A stretch of 22,397 bases of DNA, taken from a virus. A model generated the notes under the pieces. It was given only the letters and a program-made list of their open reading frames with translations. It was not told where the DNA came from and made no database searches. Of this stretch, positions 700-15,297 are shown piece by piece (positions within the stretch are counted from its first letter, which is position 1; every line of letters begins with the position of its first letter). The translations under genes were made by a program, and so were the position numbers. The stretch is from positions 1-22,397 of IMG/VR virus record IMGVR_UViG_3300021963_000717, one strand, 5' to 3'.

Positions 700-880
700 A
701 AGCGCCAGTTCTTTGTTGAGCTTTCGCCAGTTCATACTCAATTTTGTTCTCCAGTTCGGTAATCTGCTTTTGTATGCGCTCAAGTGCGCGGTACTGCTGC
801 CGCAACATCTTCTCGTGCTGATGCTGCTCGGCTTTAGCGGCTTTAAGTTTAGTCTGCCATAAACTAAGTCGGGAGGTCAT
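668..880 (-). CDS. Small coiled-coil protein, unknown function
   Basis: A 70-aa protein beginning MTSRLSLWQTKLKAAKAEQ. Residues 10-60 are rich in K, E, Q, R and L with heptad-like spacing, which suggests one long helix or coiled coil. It has no membrane segment or lipobox, so despite sitting near the lysis genes it does not look like a spanin. The start has a fair ribosome-binding site (AAGGA about 6 bases upstream). It overlaps the end of the upstream gene by 17 bp and the downstream gene by 32 bp, as expected in this compressed operon. Function not recognised. Confidence 0.6.
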   Translation of the reverse strand: MTSRLSLWQTKLKAAKAEQHQHEKMLRQQYRALERIQKQITELENKIEYELAKAQQRTGAYDRGSGVEFA

Positions 881-6356: not shown

Positions 6357-8303
6357 ATGAGCGTCCTATGGGTGGATTTCGAGACACTCAGCCGCTGTGA
6401 CCTGACGACCAAAGGCGTTTACAACTACGCGCAAGACGCAAGCACGGACGTGCTGTGCATGTCCTACGCGTTTGATGATGAGGACGTTGTGACGTGGACG
6501 CCTGAGCTACCGTTTCCTAAGCGCGTGCGCCAGCACACCGGCCAGATACGCGCGCATAACGCAGCGTTTGAGCGTCTGATCTTTTGGTATGTGCTGCACA
6601 TCAACTACGACCTTGAGCAGTTTTACTGCACGGCTACCCAAGCACGGGCTAACTGTGCGCCTGGCTCGCTTGAGGACGTGGGGCGGTTTGCAAGCGCTGA
6701 CATGCGTAAAGACTACCGTGGCTCGCAACTGATCAGGCGCCTATGCTTGCCGCAGGCAGACGGCAATTTTTACCGCGACGAGGCGTTGTTTGCTGAGTTA
6801 GTGGCTTATTGCGAGCAAGACGTCCGCGCCATGCGCGCTATCTCTAAGGCCATGCGTGATTTGTCGGCTGAGGAGCTTGCCGACTATCACGTCAACGAGC
6901 GCATCAACGATCGTGGCGTGTTGGTCGATGTGGCGCTGTGCAAGGCAGCGGTGCAGTATGCAAGCGATGAACTCATCGAAATCGAGCAGATCGTTGCCGA
7001 CGTGACGCAGGGCGCCATTGCGAGCGTGCGCAGTCCTAAGATGAAGCAGTGGGTCATGGACCGCGTAGGACCGCAGGCGTTGGCGCTCATGGCGTCGCAT
7101 AAGGACGGCGAGAAGAAGTATTCGATCGATAAGACCGTGCGGGCTAACTTGCTTGCGATGGATGATCCTGAGCAAGTGCCGCCTGATGTGGCCGAAGTCA
7201 TCCAGTGCGCTGACGACCTATGGGCGTCGAGCGTGGCGAAGTTCAGCCGCTTGGCTGCGCTTGCTGACGATGAGGATCATCGGGTGCGCGGTGCGTTTGT
7301 GTTTGCCGGTGGGTCGGCCACGGGCCGAGCGTCGTCCTACGGCGCTCAGGTGCATAACTTTACGCGTAAGTGTGCTGACGATCCTGAGGCTGTGCGTACT
7401 GCGATGGTGCGCGGTCATAAGATCGTGCCGACCTACGGGCGTCGCGTCACGGACGTGCTTAAGGGGATGCTACGCCCTGCGCTGACGCCTGCGCCTGAGC
7501 ATGTGCTGATCGTCGCTGATTGGGCGGCGATCGAGGCGCGGATGAACCCGTGGCTGTCAGCGCACGCTACGTCTGAGGCTAAGTTGGACTTGTTTCGCAC
7601 GGGCGCAGACATCTACAAACACAACGCCAGCCGGACGTTTAATGTGCCGGTGGATGCGATCGATAAAGAGCAACGCCAGATTGGCAAGGTCCAAGAGTTG
7701 GCGTGCGGGTACGGTGGCGGCGTGGGGGCGTTTGCTTCGATGGGGCGCATCTATGGTGTTAACTTACCGGAGGCTGACAGCAGGCGCATGGTGGAGGCGT
7801 GGCGACGCGCTAACCCGTGGGCTGTGCATTACTGGCAGGCGCTTGAGACGTCGTACATGCGCGCGATGAGGAACCCAAAGTCTGAGTTTAAGGCTGGCCG
7901 TGTGACGTACTATTTTGACGGTCAGCATCTCTGGTACGCGCTGCCGTCAGGGCGCATCCTATGCTACCCCTACGCGCGGCTAGAAGATGATGGCGTGTCC
8001 TATGCCAAGGCGTCATGGAAGCCTGCTGCGGACGCTAAGGAATGGCCCAGAGCGCGGTTATGGAAGGGCTTAGCTGCTGAGAATATCTGCCAGGCCGCAG
8101 CGGCTGACATCTTGCGCGCGTCGCTGCGTCAGCTTGATGGCGTAGTCTTGCATGTGCATGATGAGATTGTGTTAGAGGTGCCAGCGTCTGACGCTGACGC
8201 TGCGGTGGCGATGCTGCATAGCGTCATGTGTACGTCGCCCGCATGGGCAAGCGGTCTGCCCTTAGAGGCCGAAATTAACGTTATGACAAGGTATGGGAAA
8301 TGA
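6357..8303 (+). CDS. Family A DNA polymerase with 3'-5' exonuclease
   Basis: A 648-aa replicative polymerase. The N-terminal DnaQ-like proofreading domain is intact: WVDFETLS (D7, E9), HNAAFE (67-72) and YCEQDVRA (D155). The polymerase domain has motif A VADWAAIEARM (D388), motif B IGKVQELACGYGGG (near 441-454, with the lysine and the YG pair) and motif C HVHDEIVLEV (H601, D602, E603). The typical DYSQIELR of motif A is here DWAAIEAR, as in a known branch of phage polymerases. No 5' nuclease domain is present, as usual in phages. The ATG directly follows the TAG of the 55-aa gene, and its TGA overlaps the primase start as ATGA. Confidence 0.95.
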   Translation: MSVLWVDFETLSRCDLTTKGVYNYAQDASTDVLCMSYAFDDEDVVTWTPELPFPKRVRQHTGQIRAHNAAFERLIFWYVLHINYDLEQFYCTATQARANCAPGSLEDVGRFASADMRKDYRGSQLIRRLCLPQADGNFYRDEALFAELVAYCEQDVRAMRAISKAMRDLSAEELADYHVNERINDRGVLVDVALCKAAVQYASDELIEIEQIVADVTQGAIASVRSPKMKQWVMDRVGPQALALMASHKDGEKKYSIDKTVRANLLAMDDPEQVPPDVAEVIQCADDLWASSVAKFSRLAALADDEDHRVRGAFVFAGGSATGRASSYGAQVHNFTRKCADDPEAVRTAMVRGHKIVPTYGRRVTDVLKGMLRPALTPAPEHVLIVADWAAIEARMNPWLSAHATSEAKLDLFRTGADIYKHNASRTFNVPVDAIDKEQRQIGKVQELACGYGGGVGAFASMGRIYGVNLPEADSRRMVEAWRRANPWAVHYWQALETSYMRAMRNPKSEFKAGRVTYYFDGQHLWYALPSGRILCYPYARLEDDGVSYAKASWKPAADAKEWPRARLWKGLAAENICQAAAADILRASLRQLDGVVLHVHDEIVLEVPASDADAAVAMLHSVMCTSPAWASGLPLEAEINVMTRYGK

Positions 8304-10606
8304 TAAAAAATTTTTTGGAGTTCCTAATCTCTCTTGCGCCTGAGGGCGAGACGCCGCTTATCGTGCGGCAAAAGCCGCAGCTTAAGGACGGTCAGTTGCA
8401 ATTTCACGCTGATGGCGCGATCAAGTGCACATGGCCTGCCCATCTGCCCGACATTAAAAAGATCAAGCCCGATCAGGCGTGGTATGGCAACACGGCGAGT
8501 TTTATCTTAGATCGCTTTGGCGATCACGTGTCGGCATCGGCGGCTAACTGCGAGTACTGTCTGGTGCTCGTGCTCGATGACGTTGGCACCAAGAGCAAGA
8601 CGCCTCCGCTTGCGCCGACCTGGGTCATGGAAACCTCGCCTAATTCGTTTCAGTGGGGTTATGCCTTTGCTGAACAGCCGACCAAGGGTGAGTTTGCTGC
8701 GGCCATGCGCGCGATCGCTGACGCAGGCTACACCGACCCTGGGGCGCTTAACGCGGTGCGTAACTTTCGCTTGCCTGGCTCAGTTAATCTTAAGCCTGGT
8801 CGCAACAGTTTTGCATCGCGTCTGGTCGAGTTTCACCCCGATCGTGACTTTTCGCTCGCTCAGATATGCGAGGCGCTGGGCGTAACGCCTGCTGAGGCCG
8901 ATAGCAGCGGTCCGCAGCCGATCAAGATCGTTGACACAGGTAACGATGACGTGTTCGCGTGGCTCGCCTTGCAGGGTATGGTCGTATCTAAGCCTAACGG
9001 CGAGGGCTGGGCTGGCGTTATCTGCCCGAACCATGCCCAACACACCGACGGTAACCCTGAGGGGCGCTATAAGCCTTCTATGCGCGCGTACTGCTGTTTG
9101 CACTCGCACTGCGTCGATCTTGACACTAAGGCGTTTCTAGCGTGGGTCGCTGAGAATGGTGGCCCTGCTCACGCGCTGGGGCTGCGCGATGATTTGCTTG
9201 CAAGCACCATGCAGACAACGCTTGACAAGCTAGAGCCTAGTAATTTTTTTAGTGATGACGCCAAGAAGGTGATCGAGGAGGTCGAGCGTAAGGAGCTTGG
9301 GCGTGTTGAGATGAAGGGCTGGTTTCAACGCTTTGCTTACATCCAGAGTGATGATTCGTTTTTTGACATGCAAGACAGGCGCGAGGTGCCGCGCTGGGTT
9401 TTCAACGCGCTGTACCGCCATGTGAATTGCACATCGATTAACAGCAAGCGCAAGATCGAAGCGGCGACGTGTTTCGATGAACAGCGTCAGGCCATGGGCG
9501 CACGCACCTTGGTCGGTGTGACCTACGCTGCTGGCGAGTCGATGCTTGTGTCGCGTGACGGTGATGTGTTCGGCAATCGCTGGCGCGATGCGCGACCCGT
9601 GGTTGATAAGACCCTTGTGCGCGATATATCGCCATGGCTTGAGCACTGCGAGCGCCTTGTGCCTGAGCCTAGCGAGCGTGAGCACTTGTTTAACATCATG
9701 GCCTATAAGCTCCAGCATCCTGAGGTCAAGATCAATCACGCGGTGCTGCATGGTGGCGACCAAGGGTCGGGCAAAGATACCATGTGGGCGCCGTTCTTGT
9801 GGGCCGTATGCGGTCCAGGGCTGAAGAATCGCGGATTGCTTGATAACGATACGCTGAACCTCCAGTGGGGGTACCAGCTTGAGTGTGAGATTCTCGTCAT
9901 CAATGAGTTGAAAGAGCCTGAAGCGGCAGCGCGTCGTGCGCTGGCGAACAGACTCAAGCCGATCATCGCTGCACCTCCAGAGATGCTGCCGATTAACCGC
10001 AAGGGTCTGCATCCCTATGACATGCTCAATAGGATGTTCGTGTTGTCGTTTACCAATGACCCGCTCCCCATATCGCTTGACTCGCAAGATCGACGCTGGT
10101 TTTGTATATGGTCGCGCGCGCCTAGAATGGTTGATCGCCAGGCGCAATTGCTTTGGGATTGGTACAAAGCCGAAGGTTTCGTTTCCATAGCGGCATGGCT
10201 CTATCAGCGCGACGTAAGCGCGTTTAATCCTGCTGCAACGCCTGCTTGGACCGAGTTTAAATTTAACTTGATCGAGCACTCCATGAGTACATCCGAATCG
10301 TTCTTGGTTGAGCTTATGCGTAACCGCCAAGGTGAGTTCGCGCGCGGTGTGGTGGGGTCGCCCTTCCATCTGCTGATTGATAGATTGTCCGGTGGCTTGC
10401 CTGCTGGCGTGAAGATTCATCAGGCAGCACTGCTACACGCGCTGAAGGAAGCTAACTGGGTCGATGTGGGCCGATTAGCGTCGTCGGAATATCAGACCAA
10501 GAAGCACATTTTCGCCGTGCCTGAGCTTGCGTCGAAGTTAAGCAAGTCCGAGCTTAGGCGCATGGTGGAGGAAACTGCACCTACCAAGATGGCATTAGTT
10601 AGATAG
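8300..10606 (+). CDS. Primase-helicase fusion (RepB-like primase, zinc site, SF3-like helicase)
   Basis: A 768-aa protein. Residues about 60-180 resemble the RepB-type archaeo-eukaryotic primase: LVLDDVG with D93-D94, TSPNSFQWGY from 112, and RLPGSVNLKPG at 157-167. A zinc site follows: C242-x2-H245, then Y-C265-C266-L-H-S-H-C271. The helicase domain (DUF5906/VapE-like) has Walker A GGDQGSGKDT with K492, Walker B ILVINE (531-536), and VLSFTNDPLPISLDSQDRRW with the conserved arginines near 598. One chain could therefore unwind and prime for the polymerase it overlaps. The acidic primase pair is seen, but I could not fix the third catalytic residue, so primase activity is less certain than ATPase activity. 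Confidence 0.85.
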   Translation: MIKNFLEFLISLAPEGETPLIVRQKPQLKDGQLQFHADGAIKCTWPAHLPDIKKIKPDQAWYGNTASFILDRFGDHVSASAANCEYCLVLVLDDVGTKSKTPPLAPTWVMETSPNSFQWGYAFAEQPTKGEFAAAMRAIADAGYTDPGALNAVRNFRLPGSVNLKPGRNSFASRLVEFHPDRDFSLAQICEALGVTPAEADSSGPQPIKIVDTGNDDVFAWLALQGMVVSKPNGEGWAGVICPNHAQHTDGNPEGRYKPSMRAYCCLHSHCVDLDTKAFLAWVAENGGPAHALGLRDDLLASTMQTTLDKLEPSNFFSDDAKKVIEEVERKELGRVEMKGWFQRFAYIQSDDSFFDMQDRREVPRWVFNALYRHVNCTSINSKRKIEAATCFDEQRQAMGARTLVGVTYAAGESMLVSRDGDVFGNRWRDARPVVDKTLVRDISPWLEHCERLVPEPSEREHLFNIMAYKLQHPEVKINHAVLHGGDQGSGKDTMWAPFLWAVCGPGLKNRGLLDNDTLNLQWGYQLECEILVINELKEPEAAARRALANRLKPIIAAPPEMLPINRKGLHPYDMLNRMFVLSFTNDPLPISLDSQDRRWFCIWSRAPRMVDRQAQLLWDWYKAEGFVSIAAWLYQRDVSAFNPAATPAWTEFKFNLIEHSMSTSESFLVELMRNRQGEFARGVVGSPFHLLIDRLSGGLPAGVKIHQAALLHALKEANWVDVGRLASSEYQTKKHIFAVPELASKLSKSELRRMVEETAPTKMALVR

Positions 10607-11019: not shown

Positions 11020-11214
11020 TTAGTAAAGTGCTTCGCCGTACTGTTCAACGGTCCTTTTGTCGCGTAGCAGTTTGATTTCGCGTCGTTTGAATGTATGCAG
11101 CGCAGGAAACGGCCAACCATTGCGCGAAGGTATGCGCACAATGTATTGGCCGTCCTCCACGCGATCAATAACGCCGGCGCCCTTCGGCGTCGTAACGCGC
11201 GCGTCTGGTTTCAT
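11020..11214 (-). CDS. Small protein with SH3/KOW-like barrel pattern
   Basis: A 64-aa protein from ATG 11214, which overlaps the upstream stop as ATGA. MKPDARVTTPKGAGVIDRVEDGQYIVRIP has the turn-rich strand pattern of KOW or SH3-like beta barrels (a D.V.TP.G.G.I opening and a strand ending in Y.VRI), followed by FKRREIKLLRDKR. Such folds bind nucleic acid or protein. The assignment is from pattern only. It is coupled to genes on both sides. Confidence 0.55.
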   Translation of the reverse strand: MKPDARVTTPKGAGVIDRVEDGQYIVRIPSRNGWPFPALHTFKRREIKLLRDKRTVEQYGEALY

Positions 11215-11483: not shown

Positions 11484-11532
11484 GGTTGATTGTCCTATAG
11501 TTGATTGGATTAGCTGACGCAATGCGCGCCCC

Positions 11533-11568: not shown

Positions 11569-12213
11569 TTAAGCCAGCTTCGCCCATGCAGGGATCATAG
11601 GCTTGTCGTCACTGTCGACGCGCATGGGCATGACGATCACGATCGATTCATTACCCAAGCCAGTAACTTGCGCTGCGCTGCGTCCGTTGTGATGAATGAC
11701 GACGTTGCGCCAATCGACGTTTAAGGCTTTGCGCGCGTCGTTTAGCCGAGCCATTAGCTCAAGATTGAAATGCGCAACTTCGCCCGATAACGTCGATGGG
11801 ATGACGCGCCGCCAATCCGGAAACTTGCCATCGACTAGCATATTGGTGACTGATGTTAGGCCCGTGATCTTGTACGTTGTATTGTGCTTGATCATGACAC
11901 CAGGCCGATCGGGATCGGGCGTCGGCGCGGGTTCGGTTATTTCGATCGTGATCGGCAGCGCGTGCTTGCCTGCTTTCATAGGTTTAACCGCCTCAAGATC
12001 AGCGCGGCTAATAATGTATTCGCCCGTCAATTTGTTGTCGACGTCGGACGCAGGCACGGCTATTGACATGAGCATATGCCCATCGGTAGCGACTAGCGCG
12101 ACGCGATCACGCGTCGCATCAATTGCGATGCTATTGAGGTAGTAGCGCAAATCGTTTTTAGTTGCGAAGACTAATAAGGCTTTGATGATCGAATGGTCGA
12201 TAGTGATTTTCAT
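11569..12213 (-). CDS. Truncated DNA polymerase III beta clamp (DnaN-like) homologue
   Basis: A 214-aa protein related to the bacterial sliding clamp, which is normally about 366 aa. It begins where DnaN domain 2 begins: DLRYYLNSIAID (21-32), then VATDGHMLM (41-49; E. coli VATDGHRLA), then MLVDGKFPDWRRVIP (125-139; E. coli KLVDGRFPDYRRVLP). Residues about 145-198 align with only the last half of domain 3 and end VIVMPMRV (E. coli YVVMPMRL), plus a 16-residue tail. Domain 1 and the first half of domain 3 are absent. The retained elements are the ones that form the partner-binding pocket in DnaN. It has a strong ribosome-binding site (AAAGGAC). It may tether the phage polymerase, or occupy host clamp-binding proteins. 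Confidence 0.85.
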   Translation of the reverse strand: MKITIDHSIIKALLVFATKNDLRYYLNSIAIDATRDRVALVATDGHMLMSIAVPASDVDNKLTGEYIISRADLEAVKPMKAGKHALPITIEITEPAPTPDPDRPGVMIKHNTTYKITGLTSVTNMLVDGKFPDWRRVIPSTLSGEVAHFNLELMARLNDARKALNVDWRNVVIHHNGRSAAQVTGLGNESIVIVMPMRVDSDDKPMIPAWAKLA

Positions 12214-12243
12214 GATTGATTGTCCTTTAGTTGATTGGATTGA

Positions 12244-12429: not shown

Positions 12430-12461
12430 AACTTTCCTTTAGTTGATTGGATTGGATTGTT

Positions 12462-12484: not shown

Positions 12485-12625
12485 TTAAAACTCGGAATCT
12501 AACAGCGCGCAAAATAACGCGATGTCACGCGCATTGAAGGCTGCAAGTACAGCGTCATTCTCAAGCGCGACACAAAACGCGATGTCACGCGCAAGGCACT
12601 CATTAACGAAGTGTATTTTAGACAT
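12485..12625 (-). CDS. 46-aa protein with internal duplication, first gene of the operon
   Basis: A 46-aa ORF from ATG 12625 with AAAAGGGA six bases upstream, too short for most gene callers. It reads MSKIHFVNECLARDIAFCVA and then LENDAVLAAFNARDIALFCA, ending LLDSEF. The element ARDIA.F(C).AL occurs twice, 20 residues apart, and the DNA behind it is an exact 17-base direct repeat (12516-12532 and 12576-12592), so this is a recent in-frame duplication. A TTGGCAAT-type box overlaps its start codon. Function unknown; the helical amphipathic repeat suggests a small protein-binding module. Confidence 0.55.
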   Translation of the reverse strand: MSKIHFVNECLARDIAFCVALENDAVLAAFNARDIALFCALLDSEF

Positions 12626-12656
12626 TGGCAATCCCTTTTTGGTTGTTTGAGTGTTT

Positions 12657-12686
12657 AGTGTAAGGCATTGTTTTGCAGATTGTCAA
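12657..12686 (-). promoter_or_regulatory. Candidate promoter of the second leftward operon
   Basis: On the - strand: a perfect -35 TTGACA (plus-strand 12681-12686), an 18-base spacer, and TACACT (12657-12662, four of six). The start point would be near 12650, giving a leader of about 25 bases before ATG 12625 that contains AAAAGGGA and the TTGGCAAT box. Confidence 0.5.
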
Positions 12687-12794
12687 GTATGGGTCAAATT
12701 GGTAATGGTTTTGAAAGGGGTTAGGTAATAAAAATGGGGCAGATTGCCAATGATTCGGGATTGTAAACGCCTGATTCGACGAGGCTTTTTCGGC

Positions 12795-12888
12795 TATTGG
12801 CAAAATTGTCATGTTTTTCTGAAAAAAAAGTCGCAGATTATTTCTGTTACCTAGCAGCGACTTAAAACGGCTGACAATTTTGCCAATA
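12795..12888. repeat. 17-base inverted repeat with a nested stem
   Basis: TATTGGCAAAATTGTCA (12795-12811) and its exact reverse complement (12872-12888) enclose 60 bases. Inside is a second inverted pair, AAGTCGC (12828-12834) and GCGACTT (12857-12863). A further copy of the outer arm, TTGGTAAAATTGTCA, lies at 13334-13348, immediately before the terminase small subunit start. Confidence 0.8.
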
Positions 12889-12971
12889 TTGCCAAAGCCG
12901 AATCGAGGGCGCCACGTCACCGCGCCCCCTCTTTGCCGGTTTTCTCTCCAATCATTGGCATTTTTGGCTAT

Positions 12972-13057
12972 TCAAAACCAATTGCCAAGATTGCCAATGA
13001 GCAAAGGTCTATTGGCAATCTTGGCAATGTCAAAACCAATTGCCAAGATTGCCAATG
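12972..13057. repeat. Iteron array upstream of the terminase genes
   Basis: An exact 28-base direct repeat at 12972-12999 and 13030-13057 contains ATTGCCAAGATTGCCAAT. Between them, at 13011-13028, the same 18-base core lies in inverted orientation. Cores begin at 12981, 13011 and 13039, close to three helical turns apart. More single ATTGCCAAT or ATTGGCAAT boxes lie at 12624-12632, 12743-12751 and 12888-12895. Confidence 0.85.
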
Positions 13058-13349
13058 GCCCGACGCCCGCGCCGCCCGATCAACCGCGCCACCAGGCACG
13101 CGTCGCCAGGCATGGATCGTTATGCCGATTAGATCAATCAATCGTTCTGTTTGCTAGATCGTTTTTGCTTTTGGCTTTTTGCTGGCGAAGCCCCCCCCCA
13201 GGGCCGACGGCCTGGCCGGTCGGAGCCGGTGGGTCCACAAGAAATTTTTTTTATTTTTAACAGCCTAATAGCAAGCCTGTATACAAAAGTATTAGAATGT
13301 CTTACGCTCGCGTTGTAACGACGCTAGGTCATCTTGGTAAAATTGTCAC

Positions 13350-13841
13350 ATGTTTAAAAGTCTTCCTCTTACAACGCGTGAAATCAAAGCGACGGAAGCG
13401 GTACTGGAGCGCATATACGACGCTGCGTATCTAGGTTTAAAAGAAGATTCGTTGGCGTTAGCAGCAGGGTTGTTACCTGTAGAGTACCGGCTCTTGAAAC
13501 AGCATGACAAAATGGCCGAAATTGCCGAACTCAAGGGACGCGCTGATAGTGAGCGTGAGCACAGCCAGCACATGTTGAACGCTGCGCGTAATGGGGACGC
13601 TAAGGCGGCGCTAGAGATACTGAAGCACACTCACGGCTGGGTCGCCAAGCAAGCCGTTAGTATTGAGGTGGACCAGCGCATCAGCGTGATTGACGCGTTA
13701 AGAGCAGCAGAGACGAGAGTCGATGAAGGTAAAGTAATCGACGTAACGCCACCAAGTGAAAAGCTAACCCATGCAAAAGCCGATATACAGTCCGGAAGAC
13801 GAGCAACTGCTGATGACGCGGTTGTGGTCTCCCGCGATTAA
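13350..13841 (+). CDS. Terminase small subunit
   Basis: A 163-aa protein that would recognise the packaging site and recruit the large subunit. It has an N-terminal helical DNA-binding part (LTTREIKATEAVLERIYDAAYLGLKEDSLALAAGLLPVEYRLLKQ), in which DSLALAAGLLPVEYRLL fits a helix-turn-helix. A central helical oligomerisation part follows (GRADSEREHSQHMLNAARNGDAKAALEILKHTHGWV), then a C-terminal tail. This architecture and the large-subunit gene right after it, overlapping by 71 bases, support the call. The Shine-Dalgarno is weak. The repeat box at 13334-13348 touches the start region, so the gene may be regulated by whatever binds there, possibly by this protein itself. Confidence 0.82.
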   Translation: MFKSLPLTTREIKATEAVLERIYDAAYLGLKEDSLALAAGLLPVEYRLLKQHDKMAEIAELKGRADSEREHSQHMLNAARNGDAKAALEILKHTHGWVAKQAVSIEVDQRISVIDALRAAETRVDEGKVIDVTPPSEKLTHAKADIQSGRRATADDAVVVSRD

Positions 13842-15297
13842 AGACGACCCCGAAGCGTTTGTACTGTTTGCTTTCCCATGGGGGCAGGAAAACACGCCGC
13901 TAGTTAAGTACAGCGGACCGCGCATGTGGCAGCGTCAGGTGCTGCGCGACATCAAGGCGCACATACAAAAGAACAAAGGTCAGGTCGATATGGACACGCT
14001 GCGAGAGGCAGTCAGTTCAGGTCGAGGGATCGGTAAGTCGGCGCTGGTGAGTTGGTTGATTATGTGGATGCTATCGACACGGATAGGGTCGAGCGTCATT
14101 GTGAGCGCTAATAGTGAGGCGCAGCTACGCTCGGTGACCTGGGGCGAGCTAACGAAGTGGTCAACGATGATCATCAACGCGCACTGGTGGGAGATCAGCG
14201 CGACCAAGCTGCAACCGGCGAAGTGGTTATGTGACATCGTGGAGCGTGACCTTAGGAAAGGGACGCGCTACTGGGCGGCAGAGGGTAAGTTGTGGTCGGA
14301 AGAGAACCCTGACAGCTACGCGGGGGTGCACAACCACGATGGCATGATGTTGATCTTCGATGAGGCAAGCGGGATACCAGACCCGATATGGTCGGTGGGG
14401 GCGGGGTTCTTTACAGAGAACATATTAGATAGGTACTGGCTGGCGTTCAGTAACCCACGGCGCAACAGCGGGTACTTCTTTGAGTGCTTCCACGCCAAGC
14501 GTGACTTTTGGCGCACACGCCAGGTAGACGCAAGGACGGTAGAGGATACGGACAAGCAGGTCTATAAGCAGATCATTGATGAGTATGGTGAGGACTCAAG
14601 CCAAGCGCGGGTGGAGGTGTACGGTGAGTTTCCATCCAGTGGCGACGATCAGTTCATCTCATCCACGCACGTCGCAGACGCTGCGGCGCGGCCACGGTAC
14701 AAGGACGAAACGGCGCCGATCATTATTGGTGTGGACCCAGCACGAGGCGGCGCGGACTCGACAGTGATCGTGGTCAGGCAAGGACGTGACCTGACGGCGA
14801 TCCATCGCTACCATGGCGAGGATACGATGACAATCGTAGGGCGCGTGATCGATGCGATTGAGCAGTACAAGCCAACGCTCGTGGTGCTCGATGAGGGTGG
14901 GCTAGGGTACGGTATATTAGATAGGCTGCACGAGCAGCGCTACAAGGTCGTGCGAGGGGTGAACTTTGGTTGGAAGGCGAAGAACCCTATTATGTACGGC
15001 AACAAGCGCGCGGAACTATGGGGAGCGATGAAGGATTGGCTTAAGACGGCGTCGATACCTAACGATAGGGCGCTGAAGTCTGATCTAGTTGGGCCTATCA
15101 TAAAACCTAATTCGTCGGGTACAATTTTCCTCGAAGGCAAAAAGGAAATGAAAGCTAGAGGGTTAGCATCGCCAGACGCTGCCGACGCCTTAGCTGTAAC
15201 GTTTGCATTTCCGGTTGCTCACAGGCAGTATGTCGAGAAACAAACTAATCGTGCGTACAACGCCAACGGCGTAACGACATCTTGGATGGGTGCTTGA
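13771..15297 (+). CDS. Terminase large subunit (ATPase and nuclease)
   Basis: A 508-aa DNA packaging motor. The ATPase domain has Walker A SGRGIGKSA with K89 and Walker B MMLIFDEAS with D197 and E198. The RNase H-like nuclease domain has IIGVDPARGG with D322, VVLDEGG with D374 (and E375), and SPDAADALAV with the last aspartates near 469-472. All key residues are present and the length is normal, so it should be active. The start at 13771 lies inside the small-subunit gene; a later ATG (residue 14) is possible because no clear ribosome-binding site precedes either. Its TGA overlaps the next start as TGATG. Confidence 0.95.
   Translation: MQKPIYSPEDEQLLMTRLWSPAIKDDPEAFVLFAFPWGQENTPLVKYSGPRMWQRQVLRDIKAHIQKNKGQVDMDTLREAVSSGRGIGKSALVSWLIMWMLSTRIGSSVIVSANSEAQLRSVTWGELTKWSTMIINAHWWEISATKLQPAKWLCDIVERDLRKGTRYWAAEGKLWSEENPDSYAGVHNHDGMMLIFDEASGIPDPIWSVGAGFFTENILDRYWLAFSNPRRNSGYFFECFHAKRDFWRTRQVDARTVEDTDKQVYKQIIDEYGEDSSQARVEVYGEFPSSGDDQFISSTHVADAAARPRYKDETAPIIIGVDPARGGADSTVIVVRQGRDLTAIHRYHGEDTMTIVGRVIDAIEQYKPTLVVLDEGGLGYGILDRLHEQRYKVVRGVNFGWKAKNPIMYGNKRAELWGAMKDWLKTASIPNDRALKSDLVGPIIKPNSSGTIFLEGKKEMKARGLASPDAADALAVTFAFPVAHRQYVEKQTNRAYNANGVTTSWMGA

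Follow-up and report, generated by a model that had tools for sequence, protein, structure and literature searches.

Repeats that lie in a non-coding region just ahead of the terminase genes of a virus raise the question of which process, and which protein, they serve. The initial annotation had offered "origin or packaging site". The locus lies in a virus fragment of 22,397 bases (the window, i.e., the whole stretch of DNA that was analysed), which carries genes for PolA, an exonuclease, a helicase, a primase-helicase, a clamp-like protein and terminase. The primase-helicase gene (8300..10606, plus strand), whose product is the proposed initiator, gave RepB_primase-like and DUF5906 matches (0.0002, below its cut-off, and 8.6e-09, respectively), and its PHROG match was a primase. 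The nearest solved relative by sequence was the NrS-1 primase, in its helicase part (residues 462-602; 8.1e-07). An SF3/D5-type helicase, as in replicons of the SaPI Rep/Cch2 type, is thus present, in this case as a fusion with a primase. A cassette of leftward genes follows, including a DNA polymerase III beta clamp-like gene (11569..12213, minus strand) and a gene for 46 amino acids that borders the array (12485..12625, minus strand). The putative small subunit gene, TerS (13350..13841, plus strand), had no match in Pfam or PHROG and was assigned by position and by its annotation as terminase small subunit in one relative; the large subunit gene, TerL, is at 13771..15297 (plus strand).

Some further features were recorded. 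The 20-base leader TCCTTTAGTTGATTGGATTG, which is perhaps a common translation-initiation leader, stands ahead of genes of the leftward cassette, next to their starts, at 12223-12242 and 12435-12454, and a similar one is found near 11490-11510. The open reading frame at 1061-1453 on the minus strand weakly matched a winged helix-turn-helix model (HTH_11, 3.5e-5, slightly short of the cut-off) and may encode a regulator. Two Leptolyngbya phages have a cell-wall peptidase gene to which 123 bp at positions 50-172 were 80.5% identical. The Rfam search gave no match, and the tRNA search found none.

The repeats themselves were as the initial annotation had described them. The 28-mer TCAAAACCAATTGCCAAGATTGCCAATG occurs at 12972-12999 and 13030-13057, in both cases exactly and with a double iteron on the plus strand, and none of 100 dinucleotide shuffles contained such repeats. 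The inverted exact double iteron between them, the 18-bp core at 13011-13028 (minus strand), is 100% complementary, and the cores start at 12981, 13011 and 13039, which are 30 and 28 bp apart. These repeats are the densest portion of an array that spans 724 bp (12626-13349) and is built of 9-bp units, ATTGCCAAn, which are nearly palindromic and often stand in head-to-tail pairs. The double-unit pattern ATTGCCAANATTGCCAA with up to three mismatches gave 12 matches, some of them counted on both strands because the motif is nearly palindromic, against 0.20 expected, and 11 of the 12 were located at 12796-13056. Nine of the 10 exact copies of ATTGCCAA in the window were inside 1 kb at the array. 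The array extends from a copy of ATTGCCAA over the start codon of the 46-amino-acid gene (12625..12632, minus strand) to degenerate copies, TTGGTAAAATTGTCAC, directly 5' of the TerS start (13334..13349). Between these ends lie a single ATTGCCAA (12743..12750, plus strand), a degenerate double iteron with three mismatches to ATTGCCAANATTGCCAA (12796..12812, plus strand), an iteron cluster (12871..12895, plus strand) with a near-exact double unit at 12879-12895, and another degenerate double iteron with two mismatches (12955..12971, minus strand). An AT-rich tract at 13235..13274, between the array and TerS, is a candidate unwinding element. The non-coding region from the leftward cassette to TerS (12626..13349), to which the motif is confined, is the proposed replication origin.

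Two expectations attached to the repeats found no support. Phasing on one helical face had been suggested, but 28 and 30 bp correspond to about 2.7 and 2.9 turns and the dominant spacing in relatives is 9 bp head to tail; as 9, 18, 28, 30 and 36 bp are no whole turns, helical phasing is argued against. The suggested GC-skew check was also run. The cumulative-skew extremes of four long records miss the array, and the skew of the window climbs smoothly across it. In the window and in relatives the array is located about 2 to 2.7 kb downstream of the primase-helicase gene and not directly behind it.

Loci L003-L155 were obtained by searches with TerS and TerL; 128 upstream regions were compiled, of which 98 were left after dereplication. 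As EM motif finding per locus was too lax and left many loci without a result, enriched k-mers were used instead. The gene order primase, leftward cassette, non-coding region, TerS, TerL was retained in all loci long enough to show it. The place of the array, the head-to-tail spacing and the AT-rich tract were retained as well, while the repeat sequence varied. Close relatives had TTGSCAA in common, and others carried dense arrays of different motifs at the same place, e.g., TGACCTAA, TGCTGACA, TGCCTACA, TGACTACA and TGTCCACA; in some loci no clear array was found by repeat search or enriched k-mers. The dense array was confined to a single place, with 16 of 20 exact copies inside 1 kb in G002, 15 of 18 in G003 and 13 of 16 in MW202483. 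A same-orientation spacing of 9 bp was dominant in classes of differing repeat sequence (C1, 110 pairs; C3, 116; C6, 56), and classes C2 and C5 preferred a spacing of 8. An AT-rich 25-mer (at least 88%) was present no more than 450 bp from TerS in 86% of 106 loci and went beyond shuffles in 73% of loci. Iterons on both flanks of the AT-rich tract were found in just 10 of 81 loci. Since iteron sets flank the AT-rich tract on both sides in the SaPI origin, the site was therefore not filed as a SaPI-type origin proper.

Two side observations were made in these regions. GC-rich tandem arrays of variable copy number (e.g., CCGACCGC, CGACCGCTC and CGGTCGGTC) are located between the iterons and TerS in L007, L058, L020, L034, L099 and L113. 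Two of 40 records each encode a small protein with a strong DnaA C-terminal domain (MW202483, locus L157, 31423-31719; G004, locus L161, 16217-16408).

The primase-helicases of L121 and L123, two loci with different repeats, differ mainly at the C-terminus. When the protein from the window was aligned with eight relatives (L129 by its C-terminal part only), two positions perfectly separated three motif groups over two TerS clades. A winged helix was predicted by AlphaFold for the C-terminus (codons 664-756; 10289..10567, plus strand). The model of the C-terminal 140 residues (66 rows) had a mean pLDDT of 74.8, with about 87-93 over the wing, and that of the whole protein (39 rows) a mean of 67.6. 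Both models have strands at 721-726 and 735-739, and the octamer 726-733 (LASSEYQT; 10475..10498, plus strand) lies in the loop between them, at the tip of the predicted beta-hairpin wing. G724-R725 in front of it is invariant, and K734-K735-H736 behind it is nearly so. The octamer lies outside helix 708-717, which usually acts as the recognition helix in such folds and is conserved here. Because the variable octamer is at the wing tip and this helix is conserved, the repeat specificity seems to be located in the wing rather than in the recognition helix. RFX proteins are known to read bases through a wing. Foldseek found nothing in the PDB at E <= 0.001, and a second comparison with the PDB gave generic winged helices (best Z 6.3). 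P4, which has ori and crr, encodes the alpha protein, a primase-helicase with a C-terminal winged-helix origin-binding domain that may be a related case; neither P4 alpha nor SaPI Rep was among the fold matches listed.

For the covariation analysis, 229 loci were reduced to 154 that contained the end of the primase as well as the start of TerS or TerL, and to 106 after dereplication. Motif similarity was determined from enriched 7-mers in the 1100 bp immediately upstream of TerS. For pairs whose primases were otherwise at least 90% identical, it was 0.20 when 0-3 of the eight octamer residues matched (23 pairs) and 0.71 when all eight agreed (210 pairs). The partial rank correlation with the motif in the 106 loci was 0.376 for the octamer compared with 0.045 for the rest of the primase, and none of 300 within-clade octamer shuffles reached the observed value (largest, 0.140). 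A single-column scan was noisy (K763 was best, with A727 4th, L726 22nd, E730 23rd and Q732 25th of 436) and was superseded by an unbiased scan in which 761 windows of eight residues were compared over 79 full-length loci. The top seven windows were all at 720-733 and the next group was just downstream, at 738-751; the recognition-helix window 708-715 gave 0.168. In 63 of 82 loci with R729 and in 27 of 105 others, ACA or TGT was present in half or more of the five most enriched 8-mers, so that the pairing of R729 with ACA is a tendency and not a law. So far, 76 distinct wing octamers have been found. The wing loop and the repeats change together across related phages, and one therefore largely predicts the other. 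Judged by covariation alone, the specificity of the initiator matches the iteron sequence, as in SaPI Rep/Cch2-type replicons.

Rules for seven wing classes were fixed ahead of scoring and applied to new loci. Of 127 such loci, 31 were removed (8 short, 1 without a wing, 10 like training loci and 12 like each other); 82 of the remaining 96 reach TerS, and 54 of these have a classified wing. In this test, which is independent in sequence and not in ancestry because the held-out loci are relatives of training loci, the predicted motif was the clear winner in 43 of the 54, with one tie, seven loci without a motif and three with another motif (L246, L272 and L338). When loci without TerS were counted too, 50 of 67 were correct, including one tie. 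The motif TGTCCACA/GTGGACAA was found in 33 of 38 held-out loci with a K727+R729 wing and in none of 44 with other wings, and TGACTACA in 7 of 10 with M727+R729 compared with none of 72 others. Wings of the type LAS.[ED]YMN had the predicted motif in all four loci; it occurred in two of 78 others, both with LAS[AS]DYMS. The motif of class C6 was present in 11 of 81 loci with other wings, and the C6 rule as scored was broader than the one fixed beforehand, under which no held-out locus is C6. Counts in the training loci are descriptive, as the classes were drawn from them; the 25 training rows without a class consisted of 22 without any class motif, one with the C2 motif and two with the C3 motif. 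Sequence alone apparently suffices to match an initiator with its site and, in part, to predict the match in genomes not yet seen.

Locus L305 offers a natural contrast to the K727+R729 class: its wing, IKSSEYQS, has K727 without R729, and downstream of its primase are six copies of ATGACC[CTG]A and none of TGTCCACA/GTGGACAA. Relatives were also found in bacterial MAGs, labelled Rhodoferax and Betaproteobacteria among others. A distant one in a Rhodoferax MAG (62% identity) has the wing LKSRRHDS and 10 copies of TGTCCACA. Among the seven loci of this origin (L366-L372), L367 and L369 were cut off, L368, L370 and L371 were ambiguous, and L372 was consistent with class C3. L366, with the wing LASRDHTT and TGCTTACA, resembled L215, with IASRDYTT and TACTTACA.

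The primase genes of L121 and L123 are 91-98% identical until about 600-700 bp before their end, where the identity falls to 70%. Their leftward genes and arrays show no relation up to a point about 600 bp short of TerS; from there to TerS the identity is mostly 77-91%, apart from a single weak stretch, and it is 95-100% in TerS and beyond. L118 and L119 showed a similar exchange pattern. By these alignments, wing and array sit in one exchanged cassette in both pairs. The clamp-like gene was 29-97% identical or not found in relatives with a similar primase and is therefore taken to be exchanged with the cassette. Since wing and array sit in one exchanged cassette, linkage alone could carry another reader, and another cassette gene could recognize the repeats. 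No frame of class C3 was present beyond 25 of its 54 loci, and the most frequent ones were translations of the repeats themselves. Frames in class C6 were common to at most 10 of 20 loci. In the closer group of class C1 one small frame (window 11020-11214) was present in 36 of 36 loci.

A pac or cos packaging site with repeats bound by TerS would agree with their place directly before this gene and with the fact that TerS proteins often bind repeated sites. The partial rank correlation of TerS with the motif was 0.205 and the best eight-residue TerS window gave 0.339; in the plain correlation, TerS (0.48) and the primase C-terminus (0.56) were poorly separated. However, the TerS proteins of L121 and L123 are identical over their first 131 residues in one comparison and 100% identical over 134 amino acids in another, and the repeats are wholly different. 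Where two loci had TerS proteins at least 97% identical, the similarity of their motifs tracked the wing, being 0.21 with differing wings (24 pairs) and 0.70 with the same wing (130 pairs), and as many as tens of sites over 700 bp would be unusual for pac. By these comparisons the repeat sequence does not follow TerS, and a TerS-bound packaging site is highly unlikely; a pac or cos cut may lie at another spot of the same region. The origin half of the annotation is better supported, by the conserved AT-rich tract and the wing covariation. The same sites could instead form an operator array and no origin, with the two divergent operons, leftward and terminase, silenced there by a regulator or by the primase-helicase itself. 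Sites lie across the leftward gene's start codon and also directly before TerS, and two promoter-like matches were found on the minus strand, but this number is at chance level (1.6 expected), the covarying part belongs to a replication enzyme, and the conserved AT-rich tract fits an origin. We regard an array with regulation only as unlikely; regulation may occur alongside origin function.

The kinship with NrS-1, the nearest solved relative by sequence, suggests that the repeats could be template sites where the primase domain starts primers, like the NrS-1 polymerase at 5'-TTTGGTTA-3'. NrS-1 requires an 8-nt template site, but has just two copies of it (PMC7102993, PMC8718748). As the covariation is in the C-terminal wing and not in the N-terminal primase part, priming sites are a very improbable explanation of the array. 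CCPol-MP is described as priming at the Cch2 iterons in PMC7581432, and by analogy priming and initiator binding may both be functions of the repeats. A DnaA-type origin, with a host or phage DnaA-domain protein on DnaA-box-like 9-mers, would suit the 9-bp units and the small protein with a DnaA C-terminal domain of MW202483. Its chance is slight enough to be neglected, since Bac_DnaA_C is absent from the window (a fragment) and present in only two of 40 records, and the motifs differ among close relatives.

We therefore favour the reading that the region 12626-13349 is the phage replication origin and consider it quite probable that the C-terminal winged helix of the primase-helicase binds the units there, with the wing 726-733 reading their variable part. 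The array, its 9-bp register, the AT-rich tract, the covariation and the cassette exchange come from the comparison of loci; from these we infer binding, melting, ring loading and firing. The winged-helix domain of the protein encoded at 8300-10606 would bind the 9-bp units head to tail, and the wing-tip octamer would read the variable portion of each unit. Several subunits would then gather on the array and a ring would assemble, the AT-rich tract at 13235-13274 would open, and helicase and primase would start forks. Points against this reading are the skew extremes off the array, the held-out loci with no motif (7 of 54) or another motif (3 of 54), the noise in the single-column scan, the TerS partial correlation of 0.205, the linkage of wing and array in one cassette, and the low number of loci with flanking iterons (10 of 81).

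The site is best read as a replication origin like that of SaPI Rep/Cch2, with a variable, putatively readable wing-iteron code. In PMC7581432, SaPI Rep and SCCmec Cch2 have a D5/SF3-type helicase with or without a fused primase, and their C-terminal domain binds short iterons downstream of their genes; the C-terminal iteron binding proposed here, and the place of the array downstream of the initiator gene, would match them. In contrast to these elements, the present system belongs to a tailed phage, has a long array of 9-bp units behind a cassette of leftward genes, and comprises many natural classes with specificity placed in the wing. In the PLE satellites of Vibrio cholerae, the DNA-binding domain of RepA and the ori iterons likewise covary and are exchanged as a module, with cognate pairing reported, and the nuclease Odn of phage ICP1 targets the PLE ori iterons (PMC7145576, PMC8263062 for covariation; PMC8263062 for pairing and Odn). 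Unlike the protein studied here, RepA belongs to the RepA_N family, without helicase or primase, and has few alleles and another DNA-binding fold (PMC7145576, PMC8263062). NrS-1 (6k9c) shares its helicase part as nearest solved relative but uses its two copies of an 8-nt site for priming, and a winged-helix code is not described in the available portions of PMC7102993 and PMC8718748. Searches of an open-access library found no description of such a wing-iteron code for the primase-helicases of phages. The principle of initiator-iteron covariation is already known from PLE RepA, a protein of another family.

A further, more tentative idea is that the octamer at the wing tip forms a modular code that largely suffices for origin recognition. 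Conserved winged-helix residues would hold the constant half-unit, and residues such as 727 and 729 would choose the variable half; for example, K727+R729 would pair with CCACA, and Y or M727+R729 with CTACA. Wing and iterons would be switched together against satellites, rival phages or origin-directed nucleases. If this is true, the modular wing code would provide a single virus group with tens of natural replication systems that are orthogonal to one another. To our knowledge, the origins of uncultured phages have rarely been located. If binding holds, these phages would offer a large natural series for a protein-DNA code set by the wing and not by the recognition helix, and a set of likely orthogonal phage replicons. 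They would also provide a means to test conflict with satellites or rival phages as a driver of origin diversification, as PMC8263062 reports for PLE and ICP1.
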